Of a stretch of 64,000 bases of DNA, positions 893 through 17,495 are shown piece by piece; within the stretch, counting starts at the first letter, position 1; each line of letters begins with the position of its first letter. The notes under the pieces are model-generated. The model did not search any database, was not told where the DNA came from, and saw nothing but the letters and a program-made list of their open reading frames with translations. Origin of the DNA: Aliiroseovarius salicola (GTDB lineage Bacteria; Pseudomonadota; Alphaproteobacteria; Rhodobacterales; Rhodobacteraceae); the NCBI RefSeq assembly GCF_027891095.1, contig NZ_JAQIIO010000001.1, positions 1 to 64,000 of the forward strand, read 5' to 3'. The position numbers were made by a program, and so were the translations under genes.

Positions 893-2443
893 TTATCGTC
901 CAATTGGAATAGTTGCCGAAAATTCTTCCCCGGCCTTTTTGGGTTGAACCAACCAGAACCCTACAAGGACAAGCCCGAAGGCTAGCCAGGCAATGAGGGG
1001 AAGGATTTCGTTTAAAAGCAACATGCCCCATGCGATGCCTGCGAGTGTTTGGGAATACGCAATCTGACCGGCGAAAACGGCACCAGCTTCGGCCACGATG
1101 TGCAGGGCCAATGCAACCGCGACGCCGGAGGCAAGACCAAGGACAAGAATGATCATTCCCACCCGGCCACCGCCAGCCGAGGGCCAGATCATCGTATCCG
1201 TCGCGATGGCGACAGGAGCAAGCATCACGGTCGACAGCGCCATCATGATCCCAACCGTCATAAAAGCGTCTATCTCCCTCGGTCGCCAAGTCATGAGGAT
1301 GGTGTGGATTGCAAGCAGCATAGGAAGAAGCAACGCAGCACCTAGCCAAAGAATACTGTCCGCGGCGCTTCCGCCACCCTGACCAAACAGAACTGCTGAA
1401 ACGGCGACAAATCCGATGCCAAGACCAAGTAGCCTTTGCAAACTCGGTCGTTCAACCGCGATCAATGCTGCCAGCGCAAATACCATGAAACCTCTGGAAC
1501 TGCCGATCAAGGCGATCATAGATGCTTCGACATGGCTTGCGATCGTCACTGTGGCAATTTGATAGAAGCAACCCAGCACCAAGGCCCAGATTAGGAAAAA
1601 GCCGAGATGTCTCTTGCGGATTTTCGGCCTACCGCCCCTCACGATCCCAATTCCGAAGCATGCCACCGCAGCGACCGAATTCGCCCAGACCACGACACCA
1701 AGCGAAGGCACTTCGAGCGCGGCGGTCATGCGGCCGAGTGCAGGAACGATCCCGAATATCAGCCCGGCAATTAGAACCAGAATAGTTCCGCGCAAGGTTC
1801 GTGCCGTCTGATCAAAGCGCTTTTCGCGCACGTAGACCTCTTGCGCAAGGCTTTGAAATACGATCGCCAGGCGGCCTAGGGAGTCCGAACGCGTTGAAAC
1901 ATCCTCGATGGCAAGCTCCGTCGGCCGAAACGCTCCGGCCTCAATTATGTGCGCAGCTTTTATCAAGCGATCCACATCGCGAAAATATGTCAGCTCCCGG
2001 TCACGGAGCCGTTTTGCAGCAAGTACAGCCTCCATTCTAGCGTTCAAGATCGGGGGCTCGAAATCCTTGGGGAGGAAATCGACCGCGCCAAGCTCTATGG
2101 CTCGAACGACACTCGCTGTTTCGTCATCCAGCGAGGAAACAACGATTACCGGGATTTCACTAAGCGCATCGTCGCTGCCCATCGCTTCCAATACGCCGTA
2201 ACCGTCAAGGCCCGGCATAACGATATCCAGAAGTACGGCATCAAATTCTTCTTCGCCCAGGCGCCGGAGCGCTTCGCCGCCATCGCTTGCTTTCGCGGCC
2301 CGGTGACCGAGCGCGATCACCGCCTTGGCCAGTTTCGTCGCGCTAGTGCGGCTGTCATCAACGACGAGAATGGAAGCCGTCATCTCTTCTGTCTCGGCAC
2401 TTGGTTGGCTGGCCGCAAGGGATTGGTTGGCTTTATCGCTCAA
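893..2443 (-). CDS. Receiver domain fused to an EamA/DMT-type transporter
   Basis: 516 residues from a TTG start that overlaps the Hpt stop by four bases (TTGA); an ATG at 2383 is the alternative. Residues 24-140 are a complete receiver domain: acidic pair D29/D30, phosphoacceptor D73 in DAVLLDIVMPG, and K126. Residues 145-212 form a HAMP-like helical linker (DVDRLIKAAHIIEAGAF, then RSDSLGRLAIVFQSLAQEVYVRE), a type seen after receivers in soluble signalling proteins. Residues 218-500 contain about ten hydrophobic helices with an EamA (drug/metabolite transporter) layout. The C-terminus is short and soluble. There is no DNA-binding or enzymatic output. Seen directly: the fusion is one uninterrupted frame. 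Known: DMT proteins usually move small metabolites, often outward. Inferred: transport is controlled by phosphorylation of D73. It ends an operon that supplies the kinase and the Hpt. Confidence 0.85.
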   Translation of the reverse strand: MSDKANQSLAASQPSAETEEMTASILVVDDSRTSATKLAKAVIALGHRAAKASDGGEALRRLGEEEFDAVLLDIVMPGLDGYGVLEAMGSDDALSEIPVIVVSSLDDETASVVRAIELGAVDFLPKDFEPPILNARMEAVLAAKRLRDRELTYFRDVDRLIKAAHIIEAGAFRPTELAIEDVSTRSDSLGRLAIVFQSLAQEVYVREKRFDQTARTLRGTILVLIAGLIFGIVPALGRMTAALEVPSLGVVVWANSVAAVACFGIGIVRGGRPKIRKRHLGFFLIWALVLGCFYQIATVTIASHVEASMIALIGSSRGFMVFALAALIAVERPSLQRLLGLGIGFVAVSAVLFGQGGGSAADSILWLGAALLLPMLLAIHTILMTWRPREIDAFMTVGIMMALSTVMLAPVAIATDTMIWPSAGGGRVGMIILVLGLASGVAVALALHIVAEAGAVFAGQIAYSQTLAGIAWGMLLLNEILPLIAWLAFGLVLVGFWLVQPKKAGEEFSATIPIGR

Positions 2444-2820
2444 TCGGTCGCTCCGCTAGCATTCAATCCGACCTCGACTAACTTGCTAAGTTCCTGCACT
2501 GCCAATGCCATTTGCACAGCGATCTCATCCACCTTTTCTCCATGCTCCGAGCCCCGGTTGTCTCGGCATTCCTGCTCCATTGTTGCGCATAATGCGGAGA
2601 GTTCAACAGCCCCGAAATCGCGTGCATTGGATTTCAGTGTGTGCGCAGCGATGCGCAAAGCATCGATATCGCCCAATCGGGAAGCCAACTGCATCCTGTC
2701 CACCAGTTCCGGTGCTTCGCTCTGGAAATCACGCAAAAGCTCATCAAGATCCTCAGTGTCGCCACCGATTACAGCCAGTAGACGCCGGAGCGCATCGATA
2801 TCGATTACCGAAGCATTCAT
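2440..2820 (-). CDS. Stand-alone Hpt phosphotransfer protein
   Basis: 126 residues from the ATG at 2820, which lies one base after the kinase stop; an upstream in-frame ATG inside the kinase gene is less likely. The histidine phosphotransfer signature is clear: AAHTLKSNARDFGA with H60 as the phosphorylated histidine, in a small all-helical protein of typical Hpt length. Its TGA overlaps the TTG start of the receiver-transporter. In tripartite hybrid-kinase relays the Hpt is usually the last kinase domain; here it is a separate gene, and the most obvious acceptor is the receiver encoded immediately downstream. Role is inferred from family knowledge and gene order. Confidence 0.9.
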   Translation of the reverse strand: MNASVIDIDALRRLLAVIGGDTEDLDELLRDFQSEAPELVDRMQLASRLGDIDALRIAAHTLKSNARDFGAVELSALCATMEQECRDNRGSEHGEKVDEIAVQMALAVQELSKLVEVGLNASGATD

Positions 2821-2821
2821 G

Positions 2822-5800
2822 TCAGTCTTCCCCATCGTTGGTTTCACCACCTTCGTCCGCCAAATCATGCCTGAAAAGCGCTGCTGTCTGTAAGCTTGCC
2901 AGGAGCTTTTCTTCGTCGATTGGTTTACTCAGATAATCGTCCATTCCGGCGGCCAAATAGCTGTCGCGGTCCGATACCATTGCATTTGCCGTTAGGGCAA
3001 CGATGAAGGGCCGCTCGCCATCGCCGGCAGCTTCACGAATTTTCTTGGATGCCTCGACCCCATCCATCTCAGGCATTTCGATATCCATCAACACTACGTC
3101 GTAGGTAGCCACCGCGCATCGATCGACCGCTTCCTGTCCGCTAGCTGCAATATCCGCGGTATAACCGTTCTTATTCAATATTTTTTTCCCGACTTTCAAA
3201 TTGATCTTGTTGTCGTCCACCAGGAGAATCGTTATTTCAGCGGGCGGCCAGACTTCTTCTTCCGCCGGGACTTGATGGGTTGCGGAGCCAGTGCCGGAGC
3301 CAACCGCCAACGACAACCCCCTTAGCAATTGCGCCGACTTTGGTGGCCTCGTCAGCAATGTAATCTGGCTAGTCAAACGCAGGCGGCTCAAAAACGTATC
3401 ATCGGTTGGCAACATCGATGTTAACATGATAGCCGGAAGCTCAATGCCCCTGCTATTTATGCGAATTTTTTCCAACAGCTCGAGTCCGGGCGTGTCGGGT
3501 AGATCGAAATCAAGTAACACGACGTCGAACTTTTCCCCTGCATTGACCAAATCGATTGCTGATTTCCCCGTGCCCAACGAAGTACAATTTATACTCCATT
3601 GGGATAATTTCTCACTCAAAATATTCCGTCTGGTTTTATTGTCGACGACAAGCAGTGCACGCTTGTTCCGAACGGTGTTCAGTTGGATTGTGGTATCCAG
3701 AGAAACCGGTAAGTCGGCAACTTGTACCGGCAGATCGAAGCTGAAGGTTGAACCGCTTCCAAATTCGCTTTCAACGTGGATTTTTCCGCCCATCAACTCA
3801 ACTAGACTTTTGGTTATCGCAAGCCCTAGACCGGTCCCCCCGAAGCGCCGCGACGTCGAGGCATCTACCTGACTGAACGAATGGAACAATCGAGTCATGC
3901 GGTCAGACGGGATACCGATCCCTGTGTCGCGCACAGAAAACCGGAGGGCAGCTTCCTTGGGTGTGGCGTAAGTGACAGAAAGTACAACTTCGCCTGAATC
4001 AGTGAATTTCACCGCGTTGTTGAGCAGGTTTAATAGAACTTGTTTCAATCGTGTCGGGTCACCAACGATTCCGCGCGGAACATCTCGAGCTATATTGCAA
4101 ACAAGCGCTATTCCCTTTTCATCCGCTTTAGCGGCAACAAGCTCAGTTGCGGCCTCAACGGATTCAGTTAAATCTATAGGGATTTCCTCGAGCTCGAGCG
4201 CCCCTGCTTCGACTTTGGAAAAGTCAAGAATGTCATTGATGATTTCCAGCAACGTTTCAGCAGCATCGACAATCGTCGTGGCAAAGTCGTGTTGCTCAGA
4301 GTTCAGCCGCGTACCCATAAGTAAGCGGCTCATGCCGATAACCCCGTTAAGCGGTGTTCGGATCTCATGGCTCATGGTAGCCAAGAATGCACTCTTCGCT
4401 TCGTTTGCAGCTTCGGCGGCATTCTTGGCCATTTCCAACTCGTTGCTCATCAGCTTTATGTCGGAAATGTCGGAAATAACTACCACAGTGCCACCGTTTT
4501 GGGATTTTCGGATGCTAACCCTATACCAAGTGTCGTGTTCACCTTCCTGGACATAGGCACGGGTCCCGCTGCGGAATCGCTCTTTCTGCCGCTCGGCCCA
4601 GCCATCGTCATTGGCTGCTTGCAAAAACCGCCTTTCCCGGCGGGACAGATCGATGATTTCAGTAAATGAATTGCCCGGCTGACAAGCGCTCTGCACAGTG
4701 CCGAACATGATCTCGTGATAACGGTGGTTTGCCACAACAAGGCGCTCATCCTGGTCGAACAGAGCGAAACCCTCCGAAATGCTCTCGATCGCATCAGACA
4801 GCCTTTGACGAGCCTGAGAGATTTCGCGTAGATTGCTTTCTTCCATCTCCACCGCAGTGTTCCGAAATACGGTGAGCGCCCGCATCAAATGCGCGATTTC
4901 GTCGTTACCGCTGGGCTTGGGAAGAGGATCGCGTAGATTGCCTTCAGCTAGGGCAAGTGTCGCGCCACTGAAGGCACTGAGGCGGGCTCCGAGGCTTCGG
5001 TTCAAATAATAAATCGCTCCAATAATCGCCAATAGGAGCCCGCCAAACACGACCAATAGTGTCGTTCGGCTTGACTTTAGGGAAGCGAGAACATGCGCCG
5101 CGCTGCTGTTCGTCATCTCGCGGGCGCCAGAGACTATCTCATCGGAAATATTGCTCATTTCAAGCGTGAGCCCATTTGTCTTCAAAAGCGTTTCTTCGAC
5201 GATCGAAATGTTGCGTAACTCACTTTCGCGGAGCGCGAGAACACCAACCTCGCCATCACCCGAACCAATCAGCTGGGCGACCATCTCGACCACAGACATG
5301 AAATCCAGAACTCCTGATAAGCGATTGGAAACCTCACTTGTTGCGGCTTTAATGGTGCTAAGTTCGCCTCGTAAAAGATCCAAATCCGATTTGTCACGCG
5401 CGAAAGCGGCCACCGACAGGATACCGACGACCCGGTTTCCCAGCGCCTGCAATTCCAAAAGTGCTCCAAACCGGCTGACGCTCGCTTCTGTGATCGCCTC
5501 AAGGCTCTCCGACACCTGTCGGTTGAGGTCGACACTTTCCGTTACCGTCTGTCCGCGGAGCAGCGTTACGGAAAGACGCACCTGCCGGTCAAATCCAACG
5601 AATGCGTCTTCGATCTGCTTAAAAAGGTCATCGCGCACCAAGGGCTGTGTGATGCCCTCCGACAAGTTTATCCTTAGCTGGTCGAACGCACCGGACTTTC
5701 CCACAGTCAGCGACAGCAGGTATTCGAATGCGCCTCTCAGATCGGCGGTATCGACAATCCGATTTGCCGAGGGGTCAGAATTGATGATGACGATATTCCG

Positions 5801-6619
5801 TCTGGCCACCGAACTGGATCGCACGAACTCGCGCCAATGTTCGTCATGTTCGTCAATAGATATCGATGCGAAAGCTCCCGCGACTGCCTCTCGCATCTTT
5901 GCTTGCTCTGCGCTTATCGCCAAGATTGGAATAAGCCCTTTCAAACTGATGCCACTTATCCGAACAAGCGAAGCATCCGTGAACGCCGCAATTCGTTCGC
6001 TTTCTTCCCCAAGCTTGACTGTTTCATATGCGATAAGCGGTCTGAGCGTTTCGTTGAACGCAAAGTGCCGATCAGTCAGCAACTGGATTTCACGGTCTGC
6101 CTGCTCGCGGATCTGAAGCCTTTGATCGACGGTCTGTGACAGCTCGTGTGTAAGGGCAGAAACTTCCGACAATAGCGCTTTGAGACTTATTTCGTCATCG
6201 GCGCCAGCGCCGGTCAATTCGAGATCTGAAATTTCATCTAGCGTTTTTTCAATGTGATCGTTCAAGGCGCTGTTTTTTGACGTCAATGCGACGACGTTTT
6301 CTGCGGTTGCCATGGCCGCGGCCGCCGTCCTGATTTTGGTCATCGACTGTGACACGTTATAGGCAGCTATGACCGAAGGCAGGTTTTCTTGTGTAATCGA
6401 GGAAAGTTGAACCTGAACCAAATTAATAGCGCTTTGTGCGACTATCGTGCCAGTTACCACCAGCAGCAAGATGAATGCAAAAACGGCAAACATTTTGGCG
6501 CGAATGGTTGACAGAAGACCGCCAATACCGTGCTTCCTGCGAGAGTCCGGGCCTCTATGCGCCCCACTCAGACGCGCATCGGGGCTAGCCGGTTGATTTT
6601 GTTCGCCCGCCCCGGTCAC
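2822..6619 (-). CDS. TorS-like hybrid sensor histidine kinase with two receivers
   Basis: 1265 residues. A membrane helix at about 43-62 and a second at 519-538 enclose a roughly 450-residue, mostly helical periplasmic sensor like that of TorS. HAMP follows at 541-595, then PAS at about 605-715 ([18 protein letters not shown]). HisKA has H751 in [10 protein letters not shown], and the ATPase domain shows N867 (LLNNAVKF), DTGIGI at 898-903 and GTGLGL at 928-933. Receiver 1 (988-1100) keeps D1037 but its acidic pocket reads VVDN and its switch lysine is not obvious. Receiver 2 (1129-1243) is complete with D1135/D1136, D1179 and K1232. No Hpt is attached; it is the next gene. The start overlaps the stop of the binding-protein gene by four bases, so the two should be made together. 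TorS-type kinases read a periplasmic binding protein, which fits this pairing. Confidence 0.9.
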
Positions 6620-7767
6620 TCGAGCGAGAAATCTTTGATATCATCAGGCGACAGATAGGCCACCGACGGACTAAGCATGACGTCGAGATGAAGCTTGAAA
6701 ATCCTCGTAGAATCTCTATCTTTTTTTGCCCACTTGAACCAGAGGGGCAGTGCGACCTTCCTGAACCTCTCAACATCGTCTTCGGTAAGCCGCGTCACTT
6801 CCACCCCTGCAGCCTGAAAATCCGCCCAGGCCTTGATATTTGCATTTTGGTGCGCCGTAAAATGCTCGGAGGAAAACGCACGAACCAATTCGGTGATAAG
6901 CGCCTGTGTCGGCGTAGGCAAATCGTTCCACACGCCTTGATTGAACGCGACTATAGTCAGGTCGACGGGTTGGTGGAGGCAAGGCGTCGATGTCGGTCCC
7001 ATGACGATGTATTTGCTGACATCGGCGAACCCGAGGTCAAAATTCATTGCCGGTCCGGCAAAATCCGCGGCATCGATCGCTCCACTTTCCAGAGCAGGTT
7101 GAACTTCCGATCCAGCCAGTGCGATTGTTCGCGCGCCGATCGCCTCAAAGCAATCGGCAACCAATCCGCCGGGCATTCGAATACTCAATTCTTTGAAATC
7201 ATCGAGCGAATGGATCGGCTTGTTTGAGTGGATCAAGTTCATGTCGTGGTGAACATGGCCAACGAATTGTAGCCCGTGCCGTGCATATAGCTCTTGCGCA
7301 AGTTCGGTACCGCCGTAGCTATCAAACAACATGTCCCACTGGTGTGGGTGAGGCAATCCCATTGGGAAGGACGTCAAGAACGCGCCTGCGGGCATGGCCC
7401 CTGTAATTGCTGAGTAATGGGGAACCCACTGCATGGCATCCAGCACCCCCGCCGAAGTAGCATCCATCATGTCGAATATCTCTGCGATAGAGCCCCCCGG
7501 GAATGGCAGAAGTTTCACTTCACCGCCCGTGAGTTCTTGAACGGATTCGCACCACTTCGCGAATGTCGAGTATCCGATGGTCTTCTCAGTCCACAGACTT
7601 TGTATTTTTAGGGTTTTCCCCTTGGCCGTCGCGGCATTGCTCAAAAACGGAGTCGAAACTCCAACCGCAGCCGCTGCGCTTCCTCCAGCGACTACACGTT
7701 TCATGAATCCCCGGCGCCCAGCACCTTTTACACTCTCCAATCGTCTCTTGGAAATTGGTGCTTCCAT
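6616..7767 (-). CDS. Orphan TRAP-type (DctP/TakP-like) substrate-binding protein with Tat signal
   Basis: 383 residues. The N-terminus has a twin-arginine motif (R18 R19 in GRRGFMKRV), a hydrophobic stretch and a probable cleavage near residue 47, so it is exported folded. The mature part follows the TRAP binding-protein plan; the segment SIRMPGG (R197) is the usual site of the ligand carboxylate-binding arginine, and [20 protein letters not shown] is typical of the TakP-like branch that binds 2-oxo acids or related carboxylates. No dctQ or dctM permease genes occur nearby, so transport is unlikely to be its task. Its gene overlaps the kinase gene by four bases (ATGA), suggesting it presents ligand to the kinase as TorT does to TorS. 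The exact ligand is unknown. Confidence 0.87.
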
Positions 7768-8662: not shown

Positions 8663-8970
8663 GCCAAACGTCTTCCCCGTCACAAGATACCCGCCTTTCG
8701 CAAGAAATCTGCTTTTTACTCGAGGAAACTGACTTGCTGCTCTTGCAGCGAACCACGGCTTCCCGCCCTTTTCTGCTATAGGTTGAATTGTTGAGATTCC
8801 GTAATATTTCCTGTGTGTCCTTAGAAGGATGCGTGTGATGAGGCCAATGGGGGTCGGGTGGGGATCCAAATGAAGCCAACTTGGTTGAGCGCTATTCACG
8901 AATCTGGGAAAGCTGTCGATTTATGCAGCAATCAATGCGATTTGGTACCCATTGTGGTACCCAGAACGAC
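8663..8970. other. Gene-free stretch left of the integrative element
   Basis: No coding frame with support is visible. It contains a short direct repeat (ggtaccc twice, around 8944-8962). The original downstream flank of the tRNA-Arg gene begins just after it. Confidence 0.4.
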
Positions 8971-9001
8971 AAAAGGCTCAACCATCTCTGGCTAAGCCTT
9001 T
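8971..9001 (-). terminator. Probable original terminator of the tRNA-Arg gene, now displaced
   Basis: The arms aaaggct (8972-8978) and agccttt (8995-9001) form a stem; read on the minus strand it ends in a short T run. It lies six bases beyond the left 46-bp repeat, where the tRNA 3' end would be if the element were absent. This suggests that it once terminated the tRNA transcript and that insertion separated the two by 8.4 kb. Confidence 0.5.
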
Positions 9002-9007
9002 GATAAT

Positions 9008-9053
9008 ATGGCGATCCCTGAAGGACTCGAACCCTCAACCTGCTGATTAGAAG
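9008..9053. repeat. Left attachment-site repeat (tRNA-Arg 3' half copy)
   Basis: It is identical over 46 bases to 17418-17463. It carries the T arm, the CCA end and the 3' side of the anticodon arm, then diverges from the tRNA after the anticodon, so it is not a functional tRNA. It marks the crossover side distal to the intact tRNA. Confidence 0.9.
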
Positions 9054-9184
9054 CTCGGTCCAGACGGTTTCTCTGTATTTCTCCCATTTTCGCCACACTG
9101 ACAAAAACACATTTAAAACAACGATTTACGTTGACGCGCTCCACGCTCACATTTCATGAATAACGCCAGAATTCGGCGTCGATT

Positions 9185-9206
9185 GCTTCCTTATAGCTTC
9201 CTTATT
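9185..9206. repeat. Tandem 11-bp arm-type repeats, left end
   Basis: Two copies of gcttccttat(a/t) follow each other without a gap, 132 bp inside the left repeat and just upstream of the integrase start. Two near-identical copies occur at 17334-17355 inside the right end. Paired repeats of this type are typical arm-binding sites of tyrosine integrases. Confidence 0.6.
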
Positions 9207-9233
9207 TCCGCGCCGACTTGAACGGAGTGAGAC

Positions 9234-10421
9234 ATGAAACTGACAAAACGTGTGATCGAAGGATTGGAGCCGAAAGCCGATAGCTACCTTATCTGGGACG
9301 CCGAGGTGAAAGGATTTGGGGTTCGTGTCTACCCCACGGGCAAGCGCACCTATGTCATCCAGTATCGCGCCGGGAAACGCACACGTCGACTCACACTTGG
9401 GCAGCACGGACCTCTGACAACCGATGAGGCCCGCAAACTTGCAAAGCAGCGTCTGGGCGACGTAGCGCGCGGAGAAGACCCTTCGGCAGATCGGCAGACC
9501 CAGCGTCGCGCGCCTACTGTTGCGGCACTCTGTGACCGCTTTCTGGACGAGTATGTGGCGCAGCATTGCAAACCCAATACGCTGCGCTCTTACCGCACGA
9601 TCATTAAGAACCACATTCGCCCTAAACTGGGCGCTTTCCTGATCAATGATGTGAAACGCGCGGATGTGGCAAACCTGCATTTTGACATGCGCAACACGCC
9701 CTACCATGCAAACCGCACGCTGATGGTGATTTCAAAGATGTTTAACGTCGCAGAAGATTGGGGATTGCGTGAGGAAGGCGCGAACCCAACCCGCCGCATC
9801 AAGAAATATCGCGAAGAAGAAAAGAAGCGCTATCTCTCCGATCAAGAGCAATATCGACTTGGTCAAGTTCTCCAAGACGTTCTCGCTGAAGGAAGCGAAA
9901 CCATCCATGTGGTGTCAGCCTATTTGCTTCTGATGCTGACAGGGTGTCGCCGCAACGAGATCCAGACCCTCAAATGGGATTACGTTCATTACAATCACCT
10001 CGACCTGCCAGACAGTAAGACCGGACGTCGGCGCATTCCATTGCCCAGAGAAGCCTATGACATCCTCATGTCCCTGCCCCGCCGCGAGGGAAACCCTTAT
10101 GCAATATTGGGGACCACTGACGAGGGACATATCACCGATCTGGAACGCCCATGGCGGCGCATCCGAGAACGTGCTGGTCTGCCAGACGTCCGCATTCACG
10201 ACCTGCGCCACACCTATGCATCGGTAGCCATGAAAGACGGGATCGACCCGTTCACACTGAAAGAGATACTGGGCCACAAGAACCTGACCACCACGCTCCG
10301 ATATGCGCACCTTGCCGACGATGCGGTGCAGAGGGCGGCGGGGTCGGTTGCCAGCCGATTGGCTGGGACATTGCAACAAACTTCAAATGATCACCCCAAC
10401 CTACGTATCGTAGGAGTGTAA
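9234..10421 (+). CDS. Tyrosine recombinase / integrase
   Basis: 395 residues with a CGGAG ribosome binding site. The N-terminus (LTKRVIEGL...LIWDAEVKGFGVRV...YVIQYR) is the DUF4102-type arm-binding domain of P4-like integrases, followed by a SAM-like core-binding domain at about 95-175 and a catalytic domain. Catalytic residues are visible: R239 in TGCRRNEI, K262, H322 and R325 in HDLRHTYAS, H348 in LGHKN and nucleophile Y357 in LRYAH. It lies 180 bp inside the left repeat. Integrases of this group commonly use tRNA 3' ends, in line with the tRNA-Arg target here. Confidence 0.95.
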   Translation: MKLTKRVIEGLEPKADSYLIWDAEVKGFGVRVYPTGKRTYVIQYRAGKRTRRLTLGQHGPLTTDEARKLAKQRLGDVARGEDPSADRQTQRRAPTVAALCDRFLDEYVAQHCKPNTLRSYRTIIKNHIRPKLGAFLINDVKRADVANLHFDMRNTPYHANRTLMVISKMFNVAEDWGLREEGANPTRRIKKYREEEKKRYLSDQEQYRLGQVLQDVLAEGSETIHVVSAYLLLMLTGCRRNEIQTLKWDYVHYNHLDLPDSKTGRRRIPLPREAYDILMSLPRREGNPYAILGTTDEGHITDLERPWRRIRERAGLPDVRIHDLRHTYASVAMKDGIDPFTLKEILGHKNLTTTLRYAHLADDAVQRAAGSVASRLAGTLQQTSNDHPNLRIVGV

Positions 10422-10665
10422 ATCGCCTCGTATCTACATACGTAGGGAATCCTGCCCGGCGTATACCCGGGTAGGAAATTTGCCCCGAAGCAGGGCAGGT
10501 TCAGTAATGTCTGCAATGTGGACTTTACGTTCGTTCATCTCAACAATCAGGTCGACCACTACCCGTGCTTTGCGGCCATTGATGGATGAGGCTCGTTGCT
10601 CCGAGTTAATCCCCTAGGATAGCCTATCCAGAGAACGTTCGCCGAGCGCAGACATGCATTATGGA

Positions 10666-11490
10666 TTAGGCTTGCTTCGCATCATCAGCTTTCTGCCAAG
10701 TCGAGCACCGTTTGCGCTGTATCCGAAACTTCTTTGCAACTTTGTCGTCCAGTGAATGCGCGGTCCTTATACACACAGCCGACAATCGAACTAGGTTGTC
10801 ATAACCGAAGTGGGTTCGCTTTCCTTCTTTAAAATTGAAGCCAAGGTCCTCAAATGGCCCTACGCGTTCCAGAAAGATCTTGTTGAGGTGACCACGGTTG
10901 TGAGCGTGAATGTTTCTCATCTCCACGAAGATCTTTAGCAGCCTTCGATCTTCATCGCTCTCAAACATCTCGATGCCCAAGGCGTCTGAGATGTACTTTT
11001 CGACTTGCTTCATACCCCCATACGACAAGGCGTTGATCTTTCGATCGATCAGGTAATCAATCATTTCCTTGCGGCTAGCGAAGTCGAAGACTTCTTCAAC
11101 ACGAAGAGTTTCACCAGACTTCACTAGCTCATGTCGCCGTTGCATGCTTTCTTGAATGATCTTGGATAAGTACCAGAGAAAACCATCGACGATATTGGTA
11201 TTCATGTTCTTAGAGTTCAGCCTTGCGAACGAGCTGTATCGCTTTACTGCTCTGTCAGAGTTTTCAAGCGTCTCTGTTAGTTCTGCGCGCCTTGTCTCGT
11301 CCGTCTCACCGGGGAGCAGTGCTTCACTGGTTATTTTCGCTGTCCTGTCCGTAGCGTGAGCTAGTTCCAGCCCAAAGTAGAATAGCTCGATTGTCTCCCG
11401 GTACTCTTTGAGGAAAAGCCAAAACGGCTCAGTGCAGGTCGACTGGAAGTTCGGCAGATAGAAGTTATCGAATTTATCAGTCAATTTCAT
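10666..11490 (-). CDS. HEPN-motif protein, possible RNase, element cargo
   Basis: 274 mostly helical residues. Near residue 192 the sequence FVEMRNIHAHNRG contains R192-N193-x3-H197, the Rx4-6H motif of HEPN ribonucleases, set in a helix as in that fold and preceded by a region rich in charged helices. The gene is alone on the minus strand between the integrase and the rest of the element, in A+T-rich DNA, the usual place for cargo. HEPN proteins are frequent in toxin-antitoxin and anti-phage systems; here no antitoxin is obvious. The C-terminus is basic. Apart from the motif the protein is unknown to me, so HEPN membership is a moderate call. Confidence 0.6.
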   Translation of the reverse strand: MKLTDKFDNFYLPNFQSTCTEPFWLFLKEYRETIELFYFGLELAHATDRTAKITSEALLPGETDETRRAELTETLENSDRAVKRYSSFARLNSKNMNTNIVDGFLWYLSKIIQESMQRRHELVKSGETLRVEEVFDFASRKEMIDYLIDRKINALSYGGMKQVEKYISDALGIEMFESDEDRRLLKIFVEMRNIHAHNRGHLNKIFLERVGPFEDLGFNFKEGKRTHFGYDNLVRLSAVCIRTAHSLDDKVAKKFRIQRKRCSTWQKADDAKQA

Positions 11491-12147
11491 TCAGCCTTGA
11501 TACCGACGAGCTGACTATCGCTCCGATCTGCCAAGAAATCTAGCGGTCATTGCGATTTCCAATCCCATGGCACCTTCGCATTCCTCGATGGCCTGACCGA
11601 TGGGTAGGCACACTACCAGTACGTCTGACTGCCGCATTCGGCAGTTTGGGCTTTTTGCGGTCTTTCGAATAGTCTGGTGGAGCTACTTGTTCATGCGCAT
11701 TGAGACTATGCAGCCAACCTTACCATGTGCTTCAAAACAGATTTCCCCCTCAACCCAAGTCAGCAAAAACTCACATTCGGTACCACCTGATTATATAATT
11801 ATGCGGTAATACCACGGTAGGGACGAGTAACTAATAAGCTCTGTGTCATGCCATTAAGTTTAAACCCGTGCGTTAGGCTGGATCCTACGCCTTATGCCCC
11901 ATTCCCCTAACGCATTATAACGCTCGCCCCCACGGGTTGTGTTGACCGTCAATCCGTTACATTAGAGCTAGGCCTGCCAATTTGTTCTGGATTCCTGCCT
12001 TGCCTACCCATCGGACATTTCACATGGTCCCCCATTACTTCCTGCTTCAGGTTTTCGACAAAACGCCGGAAACAATACTTGTTGAAGCATCGCCCGGACG
12101 AGAAGCTGCGTGGTCAAATTTGTGGACCTTGGGCGTGAGCAAGCCGA
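11491..12147. other. Gene-free A+T-rich region within the element
   Basis: About 650 bp with no supported frame. It includes a strongly A+T-rich patch around 11790-11810 and scattered short dyads. It separates the minus-strand cargo from the plus-strand replication genes, so it likely holds promoters, and possibly the element's origin; I see no clean iterons. Confidence 0.4.
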
Positions 12148-12864
12148 ATGACTGACACACTCGCAAGATACGATGATCCGGATTTCCCCGCCGAACGCCC
12201 CAAAGAAATCAGATCGCGCATCACACCTGAGCTTCTTGAAGAAATTCGTCGTGTAAGCGGAATTGAAACTGATGACGACAGTTTGAGGCACCGTCTTGGA
12301 AAAGACCTGCGGCGATATCAAGCGGCGGTCAGGCAAGCATACGAACCGGTTAATCCGTCGCAGATTAGAGAGTTGAGAAGTTTGCAAAAAGCTGCAGAGC
12401 GATTTTCTAAGGCGATAGAAAAGCTCAATGAACGAAACGTATTTGATATCGACTATGCGATACAGTACCGCCCACCATTTAATGGAAAATTCAACTTTCC
12501 CGAACAGGAGGATTATTGGGAGGCCAATGGAAATTCCACACAACGCGCTCAAAACCTTGCAAAAATGATCTCTTGGTCCATTGACCGCGTGTTTGACGAA
12601 CGAGAGGAAGAAAAATCTCCAACCAAGCGCACTTTGAACACGCCGCTCGATCACCTTATTCAAGACCTTACCACCGCGTTCAGAAACGGTACGGGTGAAA
12701 GCCCCAAGCGCCATTGCCACTATCATCCCATAGAAGAAGCTTACACGGGTAGGTATTTCGATTTTGTGCTCATTATTCTGAAGGCATTTGCGGTTAAAAG
12801 TTTCCATAGCGAAGTCGCTTTAGGGAAACGAATTGTGCGAGTTCTTAGGGATATGAATTCTTAG
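12148..12864 (+). CDS. Hypothetical protein of the integrative element
   Basis: 238 residues, soluble and charged, with a helical segment at about 70-95 (IRELRSLQKAAERFSKAIEKLNE). There is no recognised domain. It is the first gene of the plus-strand series that leads to the HTH and replication genes, so it is probably backbone rather than cargo. A longer frame on the opposite strand (12004-12807) has no context and is treated as a shadow. Confidence 0.6.
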   Translation: MTDTLARYDDPDFPAERPKEIRSRITPELLEEIRRVSGIETDDDSLRHRLGKDLRRYQAAVRQAYEPVNPSQIRELRSLQKAAERFSKAIEKLNERNVFDIDYAIQYRPPFNGKFNFPEQEDYWEANGNSTQRAQNLAKMISWSIDRVFDEREEEKSPTKRTLNTPLDHLIQDLTTAFRNGTGESPKRHCHYHPIEEAYTGRYFDFVLIILKAFAVKSFHSEVALGKRIVRVLRDMNS

Positions 12865-12962
12865 GACAACTAAAAACACAAACGTGCATTCAACTGTCCT
12901 TTGAAGATCTTTCAGCCACGCCGCATCTTCCCCTCAACGCAACCAAATGCAGCGAGGTGAAC

Positions 12963-13187
12963 ATGCTAACCCAACCGCACCCAGACTATTTTGATCAACT
13001 GATCGACGAGAAAGAAGCCGCCAGCTACCTCTGTTATTCGGTTCGTGCCTTGCAGAACTGGCGCGTGCGCGGTGGCGGCCCGCTTTTCATCAAGGTTTCT
13101 GGCCGTTCGGTCCGTTACACGCGCCGAGATCTGCAAAAATGGATCGCCGAAAAACGCGTGGCCAACACCAGCGCTGCACCTTCTTAA
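12963..13187 (+). CDS. AlpA-like helix-turn-helix (excisionase/regulator) protein
   Basis: 74 residues from the ATG at 12963, preceded by GCGAGG. It shows the HTH_17 pattern: IDEKEAASYLCYSVRALQNWRVRGGGPLFIKVSGRSVRYTRRDLQKWI, in which a recognition helix is followed by the conserved GP-F-K-x-R-VRY and DL-W segment. Such proteins act as excision factors or transcriptional activators of integrases in integrative elements. It lies just before the replication genes. Confidence 0.8.
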   Translation: MLTQPHPDYFDQLIDEKEAASYLCYSVRALQNWRVRGGGPLFIKVSGRSVRYTRRDLQKWIAEKRVANTSAAPS

Positions 13188-13323
13188 AAATAGAGTTTTG
13201 CCCCGCAACGGTTGGTAGCGGTTGTGGGGATTTTGGGGCCGGACGGCTCTTCCAAGGGCGTGGGGTAAACGCACCTCACGCCCTTTCTGTATCCGCTGCC
13301 AGCAATTCAAAGGAGATTGCCAC

Positions 13324-13545
13324 ATGAGCAACCAACCCGCACACAAACTCAGGCTGGGCCTGATCAACGCAACCATCTGGGCTAATGATGGATTCTATTC
13401 CATCGACCTAACCCGGTCTTACAAAAACGCAGACGGGCAATGGCAGAACACAAACAGCCTTGCGCATTCTGACCTGCTGAACGCAGCCAAATGCCTTGAG
13501 CGGGCAGAAATCTGGATTGGGAGGCAGATCAATGCAAGCAAGTGA
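13324..13545 (+). CDS. Small accessory protein next to the replication initiator
   Basis: 73 residues, with a good AAGGAG site before the ATG at 13324. The pattern LGLINATIWANDGFYSIDLTRSYKNADGQWQNTNSLAHSDLLNAAKCLERAEIWI matches a small family commonly found in mobile elements, with strand-rich N-terminus (ATIWAND, FYSIDLTRSYK) and a C-terminal helix. A single-strand DNA-binding role is conceivable but not shown. It overlaps the replication gene by 14 bases, indicating co-translation. Confidence 0.7.
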   Translation: MSNQPAHKLRLGLINATIWANDGFYSIDLTRSYKNADGQWQNTNSLAHSDLLNAAKCLERAEIWIGRQINASK

Positions 13546-14917
13546 AGCAAAAGCCGGACAGCATGTCCGGCCCCAAAATAAAAGCTACCCCGCCGGAGGC
13601 TCCCAAGCGCGTGGCGAAGCACACCGTTCGAATGGGCGCACGCCCAAGAGGGGGGTGATAGTAGCACCCCCCTCTGGAAATACAGAACCCCCTGAAGACT
13701 ACACAGTATTGCATCGGGGTTTTGACACTCTGGCCCTGTCTATTCAGGCCAATATCGGCCCGAAACTTTTTGAATATCTGGAAGCGCAGAAAGCAATTGC
13801 CGAGGAAGAACAGAAAGATGTGCTGATCTCCTATGGCAGCGCAGAGTTCTTACTGAAGCCCTACGGCGGCAAAGGCTATCGGTTCTTACTGGATGGTGGC
13901 CCCGAGGGGGCAAGCTGGTCGATCAAGAAACCCAATGCGCGGGACAAATGGGGTATCCGCCTGTCCTTCGGATCGTTCTTCCTGTCCCTCCATGGGCTGG
14001 GAGCCGCCAAGGCGCATTGTGAGCGCGTTCTGGACTACTTTGGTGTTCGCTATGGCCCAGAGGACGTCAGCATCTCTCGCGCTGATTTCTGCGTCGATGT
14101 GCTGGCGAATGATCTCACGCTGGACCCGAACAACCTGATTGCGCACAGCGCCGCCCGGCGGCGGGATAACATTACATATGAGGATGTGGCCGTGCACGGA
14201 AAGTCCGGTTGGGTTTCCTCCGTCACCTCGGGCAGCGTCTCCAACCGACAGGTGATCATATATAATAAACGGTCTGAAGTGATTGCCCATGGCAAACGCC
14301 ATTGGTGGGACATCTGGAACCATACGTTACGTAGAGGTGTGGGCAACACCAACGCCCCCTATACATTACATAATGGGCACGTCCCCGGCCCGCTCTCCCC
14401 TGACAAGGAGCAGGCCGCTCAGAACCAAATCTGGCGGGTTGAATTCCGGGCAGGCAAAGACCTGTTAAAAGACCGCTGGGGCATTCGCACGTGGGAGCAG
14501 TTCTTCAACCAGTTTGGCGACCTCTGCCGGTCTTCTGGTGAACTTGTCCGATATGCGGAACCCGACCCCAACGACGGCAACCGCGCCCGCTGGCCCAATC
14601 ATCCCCTGTGGGATGTGGTGTGTGCTGAAATGAATGACGACTTGATCGAGATGCGCAGCGGAGCAGATCCTAACCCAATGAAGGAAGTGCAGCGCGAAGA
14701 GCATATTGCAAGCTTGCTGAAACAGGTAACAGGCACCTGCATAACCATGGCGGCGCTCGAAGGGTGGGAGCATGAAGAACTGCCTGTGGCATTCACCAGC
14801 TTTGCAGAACGCATGACGGAAGCCGTGAACGATAACCCCGAGCGTGCGGCCAAACAGTTGCAGGACGCCAAGGATCGATATGTGTTTGTTCGAAGGCCGG
14901 AGGGACCTCCTACATAA
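13532..14917 (+). CDS. Replication initiation protein (Rep_trans-like, rolling-circle type)
   Basis: 461 residues from the ATG at 13532 (GGGAGG upstream). A disordered basic N-terminus of about 45 residues precedes GFDTLALSIQ. The segments WGIRLSFGSFFLSLHG, ISRADFCVDVL, RQVIIYNKRSEV and WRVEFRAGKDLL match the replication-initiation-factor family of small plasmids and filamentous-phage-like elements. YNKRSEV (about residue 250) is a likely nicking-tyrosine region, though I cannot prove which tyrosine acts. Its presence means that the excised element can probably replicate. It ends at a strong terminator. Confidence 0.75.
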   Translation: MQASEAKAGQHVRPQNKSYPAGGSQARGEAHRSNGRTPKRGVIVAPPSGNTEPPEDYTVLHRGFDTLALSIQANIGPKLFEYLEAQKAIAEEEQKDVLISYGSAEFLLKPYGGKGYRFLLDGGPEGASWSIKKPNARDKWGIRLSFGSFFLSLHGLGAAKAHCERVLDYFGVRYGPEDVSISRADFCVDVLANDLTLDPNNLIAHSAARRRDNITYEDVAVHGKSGWVSSVTSGSVSNRQVIIYNKRSEVIAHGKRHWWDIWNHTLRRGVGNTNAPYTLHNGHVPGPLSPDKEQAAQNQIWRVEFRAGKDLLKDRWGIRTWEQFFNQFGDLCRSSGELVRYAEPDPNDGNRARWPNHPLWDVVCAEMNDDLIEMRSGADPNPMKEVQREEHIASLLKQVTGTCITMAALEGWEHEELPVAFTSFAERMTEAVNDNPERAAKQLQDAKDRYVFVRRPEGPPT

Positions 14918-14953
14918 CGTTACCTATACGTAGGAATGATCCGAAATTGAGAA

Positions 14954-14982
14954 GCGCCCTATGTAACGTTTACGTAGGGCGC
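14954..14982 (+). terminator. Terminator after the replication gene
   Basis: Twelve-base arms (gcgccctatgta and tacgtagggcgc) with one G-T pair and a five-base loop, followed by a short T run. It lies 37 bases past the stop. Confidence 0.6.
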
Positions 14983-15255
14983 TTTGGGGGCTGGGTAGGT
15001 GCCATGACTCCGTTGCTTATGGTAGCATTGAGCATTGTTGGCGCGCTGCTTGACCATTGACATTTCCTTAGGTTTTAGCGCATAAATTGTCTAACAGCCT
15101 TATCCGGTGGAAAGCTCTAAGCGTGATTTTGAGTTGATCGTGTTAGAGGGGACTACATAAGTGCCGCGCCAGCTATGATCAAAAAGCTGGATTGCTGCAC
15201 TCGGCGATCGACTACTTGGTAGTTGAATCCGTGGCAGAGAACTCAGCGTAATTCA
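14983..15255. other. Gene-free stretch ending at a strong terminator; possible small RNA
   Basis: No frame is supported on either strand. It has several short stems (for example gactac/gtagtt near 15209-15226) and runs directly into a perfect terminator with a T run on the plus strand, although the replication gene already has its own terminator. That leaves room for a small RNA of up to 270 nt; this is inference only. Confidence 0.25.
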
Positions 15256-15286
15256 AAACGGAGTATGACTTCATACTCCGTTTTTA
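15256..15286. terminator. Perfect bidirectional terminator
   Basis: The arms are aaaacggagtatga and its exact complement, with a two-base gap, followed by TTTTTATTTTT on the plus strand and TTTT on the minus strand. It ends directly at the stop of the minus-strand gene at 15284. Confidence 0.8.
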
Positions 15287-16138
15287 TTTTTCCGGTAGAA
15301 GGTGATCGTTGGGGAAAATGTTTATGTATCTCCGTTTTTCACTCTTAAGTGAGCGCTCTGCACCCGACGAAGTTTTAAGGTCCGACTGTATCGTTGCTGA
15401 TTTCGCAGCGGTTACATCATAGTGGAAGCCTGGAAACAGTGCGACCCCGTAGCGAAACCTCCCGCACGCAAAAGCTTTTTCCTCAGATCCAATTGGGTGA
15501 GCAATTCCATGGCATTCGGTGTCTTTTGCGGGTTTAAATATCAACGCTTTATCATCTTTAAATCCTTCGCGGACTTTATCCCTAGTTTGGCGAAAGCGCA
15601 TCTTTAAGGATTTTATTTCACGAGACAATTTATCCGAGCTAAGGTCATTGTACCAATAAGTTTTAAGATCTCTTGTGATGGAAGAATTGAAATTTCGTAA
15701 CGGCAGGGAAAGAGGAGAAGATTTTCTGCTTGCGTATGTTGCTGCGGAAATCTCGTGAAGCATTGGGCGGACATCATTAATCTTGTTTTCAATGTACTCT
15801 CTCGTTGGCCGAACCTTGTTCACTAAGTTCCGTGGCACAGTTTCGACCCACGCAGAGTGACCAAATGTACTCCACACTTCTCTAAACTGCTCTGCCGTCT
15901 CTGGCTCATAGAACCACAAGGATAGTCGTGCTGGCTCAGAGTGGCCTCCCGCGTTATAAAGTTCCTTTACTAGCACCCTAAGCGCCAGCGAAATTGAAGC
16001 CCGCGTTGCGCCAACTTGTTTCTTCTTTGCTGCCGGCGCCAAGATGCACGCACCAGCAATTCGAGCCTTCATCGAAGTCAGCTCGGTCGACAAAGGAGCG
16101 TTTGCCCCAATGAAAACTATGTAATGCTCGACTGTCAT
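15284..16138 (-). CDS. Unknown protein, second gene of a two-gene cargo operon
   Basis: 284 residues. The N-terminus (EHYIVFIGANAPLSTELTSM) reads as a short strand-loop start, the middle (105-185) is helical and basic, and the tail is basic. I recognise no domain, signal peptide or membrane helix. The ATG overlaps the stop of the upstream gene by four bases, so the two proteins are made together and probably act together. Location in the cargo zone of a tRNA-linked element with A+T-rich composition supports recent transfer and a defence or competition role, but that is inference. Confidence 0.6.
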   Translation of the reverse strand: MTVEHYIVFIGANAPLSTELTSMKARIAGACILAPAAKKKQVGATRASISLALRVLVKELYNAGGHSEPARLSLWFYEPETAEQFREVWSTFGHSAWVETVPRNLVNKVRPTREYIENKINDVRPMLHEISAATYASRKSSPLSLPLRNFNSSITRDLKTYWYNDLSSDKLSREIKSLKMRFRQTRDKVREGFKDDKALIFKPAKDTECHGIAHPIGSEEKAFACGRFRYGVALFPGFHYDVTAAKSATIQSDLKTSSGAERSLKSEKRRYINIFPNDHLLPEK

Positions 16139-16851
16139 TTCTTTGAGTTCAGCTTGACCAAGATATCGAGCGGAATGCTAATCCGAGAAAGCTCCTCGTC
16201 GGACAATCCATCAAAAACATTGAGAAGGTTTTGTAGATGACCGGTGCCTCTAGGGCTTGAAGGCCTCTTGAGAACCGAGAAAGCCTCTTGACCAAGCAAG
16301 TGCTTTTCCAACCAAAGTTCTATTGCTTGGTGAGTAGCAGCAACGCGTTCAGAAATCGGAGATCCTCGCATTTCCTTCGTCAGGTCATCCGGAAAAATTT
16401 TATAGCAATTCCCTTCCATTTTAGCGACTTGTTCATCAGATATCTCGACTTCACCGTGGTCACCAATGCACACAATTCGAACTATTCCATCAATAGGCTT
16501 GATGAATGCATCCCAGAACTCCTGCCTATAAGACACGTTTCGATTTGGTTCGGCTAGCTTGCCTTTTGGAGCGAACAAATTCTCAACATGGTCTGGAACT
16601 GTAATTGATAATGGTACAGCCCCGATTTTTTGATGGATGTTGGGATGTTGAACAACTTTCACTATGGGGTTTCGTCGCAGGTATTCATGCAAGCCATCAT
16701 GGAGAACTGCGGCGCTTTCTGGCAGCTCATTCTTTAGCCTGAACCCCAAGTTACTTAGGTAACAGGCCGAACCATGTTCGTCCCAATGCTGCTGTACAAT
16801 TTCCTCGATGAACTTTGAAGTTGCAATGTCCGGCGTTTCTGGATCAGTCAT
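16135..16851 (-). CDS. Protein with LOTUS/OST-HTH-like N-terminal domain, first gene of the cargo pair
   Basis: About 238 residues if it starts at the ATG at 16851 (GGA seven bases upstream); in-frame ATGs reach back to 16887. Residues 10-75 (FIEEIVQQHWDEHGSACYLSNLGFRLKN, then LHEYLRRNPIVKVVQHP) follow the winged-helix pattern of OST-HTH/LOTUS domains, which bind RNA and occur in RNA-related proteins. The rest, including a strand-rich IVRIVCIGDHGEVEIS segment, is unassigned. It overlaps the next gene by four bases. Domain call is by pattern and needs a profile search. Confidence 0.55.
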   Translation of the reverse strand: MTDPETPDIATSKFIEEIVQQHWDEHGSACYLSNLGFRLKNELPESAAVLHDGLHEYLRRNPIVKVVQHPNIHQKIGAVPLSITVPDHVENLFAPKGKLAEPNRNVSYRQEFWDAFIKPIDGIVRIVCIGDHGEVEISDEQVAKMEGNCYKIFPDDLTKEMRGSPISERVAATHQAIELWLEKHLLGQEAFSVLKRPSSPRGTGHLQNLLNVFDGLSDEELSRISIPLDILVKLNSKK

Positions 16852-17050
16852 GATCAGTTCCATTCTCATTCGTTGGTCGGCCCGCATTCAATCCAAACCG
16901 ATTTCCGCTCGCATCCATGGTGCTACTTAAGCCCTTGCTGCACAAGAAAATAATGTGTGGTTAAGCTCTACTCAAATCTCGTCTGCGGTCCGTGCGTCCA
17001 CAAGTGGTTTGCTATGGTGCCCTGAATTTCTTCTGATTGAGCATCTCATC

Positions 17051-17350
17051 TCACAACCAAAGAGCAACTGACTGCTCGCGCCGACGGCATTTCCACGTCG
17101 TCTCTTGGAATTTGCGCCAGTTCACTTCGCGCTTGCAGTGAGCTTCCACAATTGCCCAACCTGCAAATGCAGCGTTGGCTGGTTGGTCACAGAATATGGG
17201 GTCGCGATAGGTTCGGAGCAGCTCTGAAGTGTGTTTCGCATCAAGTTCAGTAAAGGGCCGGAAGAAATGGTCAACAGTGCCTACAAAGATTCTAACCGTG
17301 ATCCCAATACAACAAACAAATCTTGATTGTATTGCTTCCTTATCGCTTCC
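17051..17350 (-). pseudogene. Possible gene fragment at the right end of the element
   Basis: A minus-strand frame open for 99 codons without an ATG, ending at a TGA at 17051-17053, with protein-like composition (GTVDHFFRPFTELDAKHTSELL, later ANAAFAGWAIVEAHC). The lack of a start and position at the element end suggest a decayed or truncated gene. The rest of 16852-17417 shows nothing further. Confidence 0.28.
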
Positions 17351-17355
17351 CTAAG
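17334..17355. repeat. Tandem 11-bp arm-type repeats, right end
   Basis: gcttccttatc and gcttccctaag follow each other, in the same orientation as the pair at 9185-9206, and lie 63 bp inside the right 46-bp repeat. Confidence 0.6.
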
Positions 17356-17417
17356 AATATGCCCCTCATATTGCACAAGGCAGACAAGCTGATAACATAC
17401 TGATTTATAGTAATAAA

Positions 17418-17463
17418 ATGGCGATCCCTGAAGGACTCGAACCCTCAACCTGCTGATTAGAAG
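17418..17463. repeat. Right attachment-site repeat inside the intact tRNA-Arg gene
   Basis: It is identical to 9008-9053. It begins one base beyond the encoded CCA end and runs to the anticodon loop of the tRNA, so integration rebuilt a complete tRNA gene. Confidence 0.9.
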
Positions 17464-17495
17464 TCAGCTGCTCTATCCAGTTGAGCTAAGGGACC
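17419..17495 (-). tRNA. tRNA-Arg (anticodon TCT)
   Basis: 77 nt including an encoded CCA. The acceptor stem starts GGTCCCT and pairs with AGGGATC; the anticodon loop is CTTCTAA giving TCT; the T arm carries GGTTCGAGTCC. The 3' half is shared with the left repeat, which marks this gene as the integration target. Confidence 0.95.

Follow-up and report, generated by a model that had tools for sequence, protein, structure and literature searches.

A four-gene phosphorelay cassette with a receiver-EamA transporter fusion as its probable output in Aliiroseovarius salicola and other Alphaproteobacteria

Four adjoining genes at the start of contig NZ_JAQIIO010000001.1 of Aliiroseovarius salicola (Rhodobacteraceae; assembly GCF_027891095.1) encode a DctP-family binding protein, a hybrid histidine kinase, an Hpt phosphotransfer protein, and a receiver (REC) domain fused to an EamA transporter (minus strand; positions 893 to 7767). 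Positions refer to the analyzed window, i.e., the first 64,000 nucleotides of the contig. A Pfam scan combined with open reading frame coordinates placed the gene for the binding protein (P0001; solute-binding protein family 7) at 6616 to 7767, the kinase gene (GTG start) at 2822 to 6619, the Hpt gene at 2440 to 2820, and the gene for the 516-amino-acid (aa) fusion (TTG start) at 893 to 2443. An initial annotation, made from the sequence alone, had described these genes as lying head to tail, which agrees with the Pfam families and the coordinates. It had also read the one-base gap (kinase-Hpt) and the TTGA overlap (Hpt-fusion) correctly, but the DctP-kinase junction, which it gave as ATGA, is a GTGA with a 4-base overlap. 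In five of the six loci with this gene order, the Hpt and receiver genes can be read as overlapping by 4 bases (the exception is L042; loci and genomes carry L and G numbers, respectively). A promoter scan returned 5 promoter-like sites versus 5.2 expected, and a terminator scan returned 18 terminator-like sites versus 9.2 expected, none of them directly after the last gene.

The binding protein matches PF03480 (DctP) at 135.6 bits (cutoff, 23.4) and carries a twin-arginine motif (RRGFMK, recognized by eye in the sequence) near its N terminus. Among proteins of solved structure, its closest relative is the Thermus protein TTHA0766 (E value of 8e-105). PMC8648760 reports that a sensor derived from TTHA0766 prefers L-lactate and requires Ca2+ and that changes at sensor Tyr80 and Asp444 lower the affinity and abolish binding, respectively. 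Their assignment to Y118 and D235 of P0001 follows the alignment, where these are the closest Tyr and Asp, rather than exact numbering. Searching 390 genomes of the order with P0001 led to 40 matches (E ≤ 1e-80) in 39 genomes. Six of these, with identities of 73 to 100% (69 to 100% in a second comparison), are exactly the copies in the four-gene operons; the remaining 34 (here termed cousins) are at most 47% identical, and one genome (G366) carries one match of each kind. Y118 and D235 are kept in all six operon copies and in 24/24 cousins. The ligand is probably a lactate-type 2-hydroxy acid, presumably bound with calcium, which narrows, by homology only, the carboxylate proposed in the initial annotation. 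Cousins differ from the operon copies at Y66, M241, and H265, and the ligand may therefore differ in detail.

All 10 of the 34 cousins that were inspected with wider flanks lie in a tripartite ATP-independent periplasmic (TRAP) transporter operon comprising DctP, a protein of ~440 aa that we infer to be a long DctQ, and DctM. No DctM was detected in the 1.5-kb flanks of 30 DctP loci, which are too short to reach it because the long gene separates DctP from DctM. In the window, there is no DctM match near 6616 to 7767, as expected from the earlier description of a binding protein without a TRAP permease, and a plain TRAP system was rejected on this ground. The 12 other DctP matches of the A. 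salicola genome all have a DctM match no more than about 3 kb away, so a permease-less DctP is unusual in this genome. The binding protein is like TTHA0766-type TRAP proteins (lactate plus calcium) in its best solved relative and in the two conserved residues, but the operon copies stand with a kinase, an Hpt protein, and a REC-EamA protein instead of the DctP-DctM operon of the inspected cousins.

The kinase, which contains a helical sensor, has above-cutoff Pfam matches to PAS_7, HAMP, HisKA, HATPase_c, and two Response_reg stretches. The Pfam scan found no Hpt domain in this polypeptide, consistent with the initial annotation, and no transporter family. Codons for H751, the expected autophosphorylation site, and for D1179, the expected acceptor of the second receiver, lie at 4367 to 4369 and 3083 to 3085, respectively. 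These residues and D1037 are identical in 6/6 kinase orthologs, and the second receiver retains its whole pocket. As to the TorS-like sensor noted initially, all six orthologs match the TorS sensor family at E ≤ 0.01 (L042 at 32.6 bits, over the cutoff), but the window kinase itself falls below the cutoff. Against the TorS equivalog model TIGR02956, the kinase scores 495.7 bits, under the cutoff of 676.5. The mean predicted local distance difference test (pLDDT) score of the sensor model is 49.9.

The Hpt protein (Pfam Hpt, 56.8 bits, over the cutoff) and the fusion contain the phospho-residues that the initial annotation had named, H60 (codon at 2641 to 2643) and D73 (2225 to 2227). Alignment identifies both as the expected ones, with histidine in 22/22 Hpt proteins (L047, L048, and L051 excluded) and aspartate in 25/25 rows covering residue 73. 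The fusion matches Response_reg at 75.4 bits (over the cutoff) and EamA at 58.7 bits (cutoff, 28.2), the latter in two stretches that represent both halves of the transporter. It consists of a receiver domain (residues 24 to 137; 2033 to 2374), a HAMP-like linker (residues 138 to 217; 1793 to 2032), and an EamA part (residues 218 to 503; 935 to 1792). The catalytic set of the window receiver is complete (D29, D30, D73, S103, and K126); D29 and D30 are present in 24/24 covering rows, and S103 and K126 are present in 26/26. The fusion of L048 truly lacks the residues before 92, and the row of L051 was shortened by the start-codon rule, its frame being open upstream with the acidic pair there.

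An AlphaFold2 model of the fusion built from 15 sequences has a mean pLDDT of 81 and a predicted template modeling score of 0.58, so the mutual placing of its domains is uncertain. It shows the receiver, a long helix (residues 130 to 168), a connector, a helix at 188 to 242, and nine more membrane helices; the helix at 188 to 242, i.e., the second helix of the linker, continues into the first membrane helix without a break. Residues 219 to 501 superimpose on the choline importer LicB (Z score, 27.9; root mean square deviation, 2.2; 252 aligned residues) and on 5i20, which we take to be the exporter YddG (Z score, 22.5). The EamA part accordingly models as a complete ten-helix transporter fold. 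Weak matches to PF00672 (HAMP) occur in the linkers of 4/5 members (best, 16.3 bits; cutoff, 25), with none in that of the window. Between L044 and L045, all four genes are under purifying selection, with ratios of nonsynonymous to synonymous substitution rates of 0.062 (DctP), 0.144 (kinase), 0.225 (Hpt), and 0.169 (fusion) for whole genes; within the fusion, the linker has the lowest value (0.054), followed by the EamA part (0.153) and the receiver (0.246).

The four-gene order occurs in 6/390 genomes of the order (the window, L009, L042, L043, L044, and L045); the conserved co-occurrence that the initial annotation proposed to look for was thus found in five further genomes. Ten neighbors of five of the six loci were scanned (an HTH_21 protein, a peroxidase, a kinase, a LysR protein, an antiporter-like protein, an RTX protein, an IS240-type transposase, a YcaO protein, an anthranilate synthase, and one protein without a family), and no conserved DNA-binding regulator was found among the neighbors scanned. 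Outside the four genes, the six loci share only short matches, namely, antisense frames overlapping the cassette edges and HTH_21-like fragments (in L042, L044, and L045), which are perhaps remnants of insertion sequences. It is therefore the cassette that is conserved and not its surroundings. The four genes form a conserved unit, and chance clustering was ruled out by the recurrence of their order across loci.

The fusion was searched for more widely. Sixteen of the 390 genomes match it at E ≤ 1e-30, 13 through the EamA part and three (G174, G262, and G288) through the receiver alone. The latter were rejected as further fusions; L052 (G174) and L053 (G262) were scanned and encode REC-cyclases, and the cyclase label of L054 (G288) comes from the likeness of the unscanned locus to L053. 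A species-genome scan added 15 loci with long matches (38 to 60% identity) and one receiver-only match; these 15 belong to a Rhodobacteraceae metagenome-assembled genome (MAG), Tateyamaria, Devosia, Rhizobium, Mesorhizobium, and an unplaced proteobacterial MAG. At 1e-50, 3 of 72,556 plasmid records match the fusion. A relative on plasmid pML2037 of Mesorhizobium loti NZP2037 (WP_080643891.1), annotated merely as a response regulator, adjoins an Hpt protein and a GAF-domain protein. The initial annotation had also held that normally unlinked homologs would contradict its reading, which is not what was observed: in all 13 genomes with a fusion gene, the best match to the window kinase core is the kinase adjoining the fusion.

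Twenty-five loci were assessable (the window, L009 to L016, L018 to L023, and L042 to L051, with L009/G013:C36 and L014/G355:C11 each treated as the same contig and counted once; L017 was excluded for its short contig). A kinase lies in the same cluster as the fusion in all 25, and a separate Hpt gene is present in 23; Hpt is fused to the kinase in L051 and missing from the broken L048. The order kinase, Hpt, receiver-EamA holds for 22/25 loci, L050 having Hpt, receiver-EamA, and kinase. A binding protein gene lies between kinase and Hpt in L011 and L016. In the broken relative of G283 (L134, L048), the kinase is split, Hpt and the first part of the receiver are gone, and an opposed 388-aa frame lies inside the locus. 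L046 (G211) contains a second, diverged receiver-EamA gene (10129 to 11664), convergent to the first and 37% identical to that of the window.

Pairwise distances across 22 loci (L047, L048, and L051 excluded) are correlated among kinase core, Hpt, receiver, linker, and EamA part (r of 0.73 to 0.96; kinase core-EamA, 0.87), and 0/2000 permutations were as high in each of the ten comparisons. In a tree of 37 kinase cores, the 25 EamA-linked and three cyclase-linked kinases group together (support, 82/98), and seven unlinked and two further cyclase-linked kinases stand apart from that group; one core was taken from L132, and the shorter unlinked rows L124, L128, L129, L130, and L131 were excluded. 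The six DctP-type kinases make up a single clade (98/91).

Both ends of the relay vary among loci. Binding proteins of three families lie beside the core in 15/25 loci, i.e., DctP in six, family 5 in L021, and family 3 or family-3-like proteins in eight (L011, L014, L016, L046, L047, L048, L049, and L051). L016 was assigned by its 87% identity to L011, and the assignments of L014, L046, and L048 rest on weak matches: the proteins L046:4473-5381, L048:3347-4102, and L014:4767-5498 are family-3-like by NCBIfam matches far under the cutoff and by mutual likeness, L046:4473-5381 and L048:3347-4102 being without a Pfam family and L046:4473-5381 also without a solved relative at E 0.01. In Rhizobium setariae (L011), three related family-3 proteins (4809 to 5657, 8732 to 9598, and 11674 to 12504) surround one core set, an arrangement that looks as if several ligands fed one relay.

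On the output side, the sister loci L132 (kinase, Hpt, and REC-cyclase) and L133 (kinase and REC-cyclase) carry a cyclase assigned by likeness to L052 and by PF00211 matches. The receivers of such cyclase relays are 45 to 54% identical to that of the window (BLAST). Since these sister systems carry a cyclase at the same place, the transporter seems to occupy an output slot. Gene content and the kinase tree show that, in this relay family, the slot is taken either by a class III nucleotide cyclase or, as here, by a transporter. The cyclase relays (L132 and L133; REC-cyclases of L014 and L052) are like the present system in kinase clade and in the position of the output protein but differ in their output, a nucleotide cyclase without the HAMP-like linker in the five REC-cyclases aligned. 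This exchange is a natural experiment in which one kind of receiver is joined to very different outputs. Class III cyclase matches number 45, 47, and 25 in G103, G314, and G227, respectively, versus 0 to 9 in the other ten genomes searched.

We propose that the cassette encodes a self-contained phosphorelay that probably has a metabolite transporter under its control at the protein level. As homology suggests, the exported DctP protein would bind a 2-hydroxy acid resembling lactate (probably together with calcium) and would dock on the helical sensor of the kinase. Phosphate would then pass from kinase H751 to D1179, Hpt H60, and receiver D73, a path consistent with the conserved residues and gene linkage. 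Phosphorylation of D73 may alter the packing of the receiver. Because the HAMP-like linker runs on into the first membrane helix, it would relay this change to the ten-helix EamA part, such that transport is raised or lowered. The simplest guess is that the transported substrate is a metabolite related to the acid that is sensed. That phosphorylation of D73 gates transport directly appears to be the best reading of the fusion. On balance, the loci seem to represent a class of phosphorelay in Alphaproteobacteria in which the last receiver directly gates the EamA transporter joined to it, and a ligand outside the cell would thereby switch transport with no transcriptional step; its sensor side would be re-equipped from three binding-protein families, and its output slot would swap between transporter and nucleotide cyclase.

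The EamA part could instead be an input or an anchor, i.e., a transporter-like sensor or a membrane holder, with the REC-EamA protein modulating the kinase or serving as a phosphate sink. HAMP domains usually pass signals from the membrane to the cytoplasm, and a HAMP-like linker would suit such a role. Transporter domains also serve signaling in CbrA, according to PMC13022988. We regard this role as unlikely: the receiver of the fusion is N-terminal with a full catalytic site, there is no other domain there to which an EamA sensor could signal, and the sister relays place an enzyme in this position. Rather improbable, too, is a branched relay, in which Hpt also or mainly phosphorylates another regulator (a transcription factor or a cyclase) and the REC-EamA protein is a side branch. 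Its strongest points are L014, where an opposed REC-cyclase gene (receiver, 54% identical) lies between kinase and Hpt, and L049, where a 615-aa LuxR-type (GerE) gene (431 to 2278) on the same strand overlaps the end of the receiver-EamA gene and is a possible transcriptional branch; the A. salicola genome also has >25 further receiver matches. However, none of the six loci has another receiver gene alongside the four-gene cassette, no class III cyclase was found in 5 of the 13 fusion genomes (G366, G211, G284, G021, and G065), among them the four-gene genome G366, and neither of the two class III cyclase matches in the A. salicola genome lies at a receiver match. It is very unlikely that the operon of the window is a nonfunctional accessory cassette in decay. 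The fusion is absent from 5/5 sampled congeners, the cassette comprises the first genes of its contig and adjoins an integrative element, the relative L048 is broken, and the first receiver of the window kinase, alone among the kinases compared, carries V992 where the first acidic residue is expected and R1091 in place of the lysine. Nevertheless, four open frames with tight junctions span ~6.9 kb, and H751, D1179, H60, and D73 are all kept.

Besides L014, L049, the degenerate first receiver, and the absence from congeners, further observations weigh against the proposed control of transport by this relay. The window kinase scores 18.3 bits against PF21689 (TorS sensor; cutoff, 27), and the linker is only weakly recognizable as HAMP. 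A binding protein was not recognized in 10/25 loci, in which not every neighbor was scanned and of which L012 ends just before the kinase. The EamA label requires two changes on the kinase tree because L051 joins the cyclase kinase L052 (99/98), such that one origin is not shown; an earlier tree of 25 linked and 13 unlinked rows likewise required two changes, and the tool issued a long-branch warning for the outer rows of the kinase tree. Shared host ancestry, which was not separated, contributes to the distance correlations. Finally, the distribution of the fusion is patchy: a fusion profile (E ≤ 1e-60) matched only the window genome among 385 genomes of the class, and its matches among 398 phylum genomes were three, all in the same family.

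TorT-TorS-TorR is a trimethylamine N-oxide phosphorelay comprising a periplasmic binding protein, a hybrid kinase, and a DNA-binding output regulator. The present system is like it in pairing a binding protein with a hybrid kinase that has a helical sensor, in its multistep phosphorelay, and in the scores of the kinase against TorS models (weak for the sensor), but it has a DctP-family binding protein and a separate Hpt gene, and its last receiver is joined to a transporter, not to a DNA-binding domain. With the TIGR02956 score under the cutoff, a separate Hpt, and an EamA fusion as output, a TorTSR ortholog was rejected. In CbrA and similar transceptors, an SLC5 transporter is built into a histidine kinase (PMC13022988); they too join a transporter domain to a two-component system, but on the kinase (input side) rather than on the last receiver (output side). 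BctC and its kinase are among about 10 characterized cases in which a transporter-family binding protein acts as a co-sensor, and the accessible part of PMC9602780 describes no transporter as relay output for such kinases.

Response-regulator outputs are known to comprise DNA- or RNA-binding, enzymatic, and protein-binding domains. If the proposed mechanism is true, transport itself would be added to these outputs, and a bacterium could adjust the flux of a metabolite as fast as phosphotransfer takes place. Each part of the fusion is of a known family; we found no description of a receiver-EamA protein, nor of a receiver, a HAMP-like linker, and a transporter ending a phosphorelay, in the open-access literature searched. 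Response_reg and EamA are listed as separate Pfam families in PMC12487129. The lactate-type binding protein provides a concrete candidate ligand, and the conserved H60 and D73 provide clean targets for mutation.

The integrative element beside the operon is about 8.4 kb long (window positions 9009 to 17495), and the operon lies outside it. A 34-base piece of tRNA-Arg(TCT) at 9020 to 9053 has an identical copy within the complete tRNA gene (17430 to 17463), and a phage-type integrase gene (9234 to 10421) lies between the repeats. The element gene at 10666 to 11490 weakly matches RTasHEPN (E value of 6.6e-5), a HEPN family tied to DRT defense systems; no match to defense families was obtained for five further frames.

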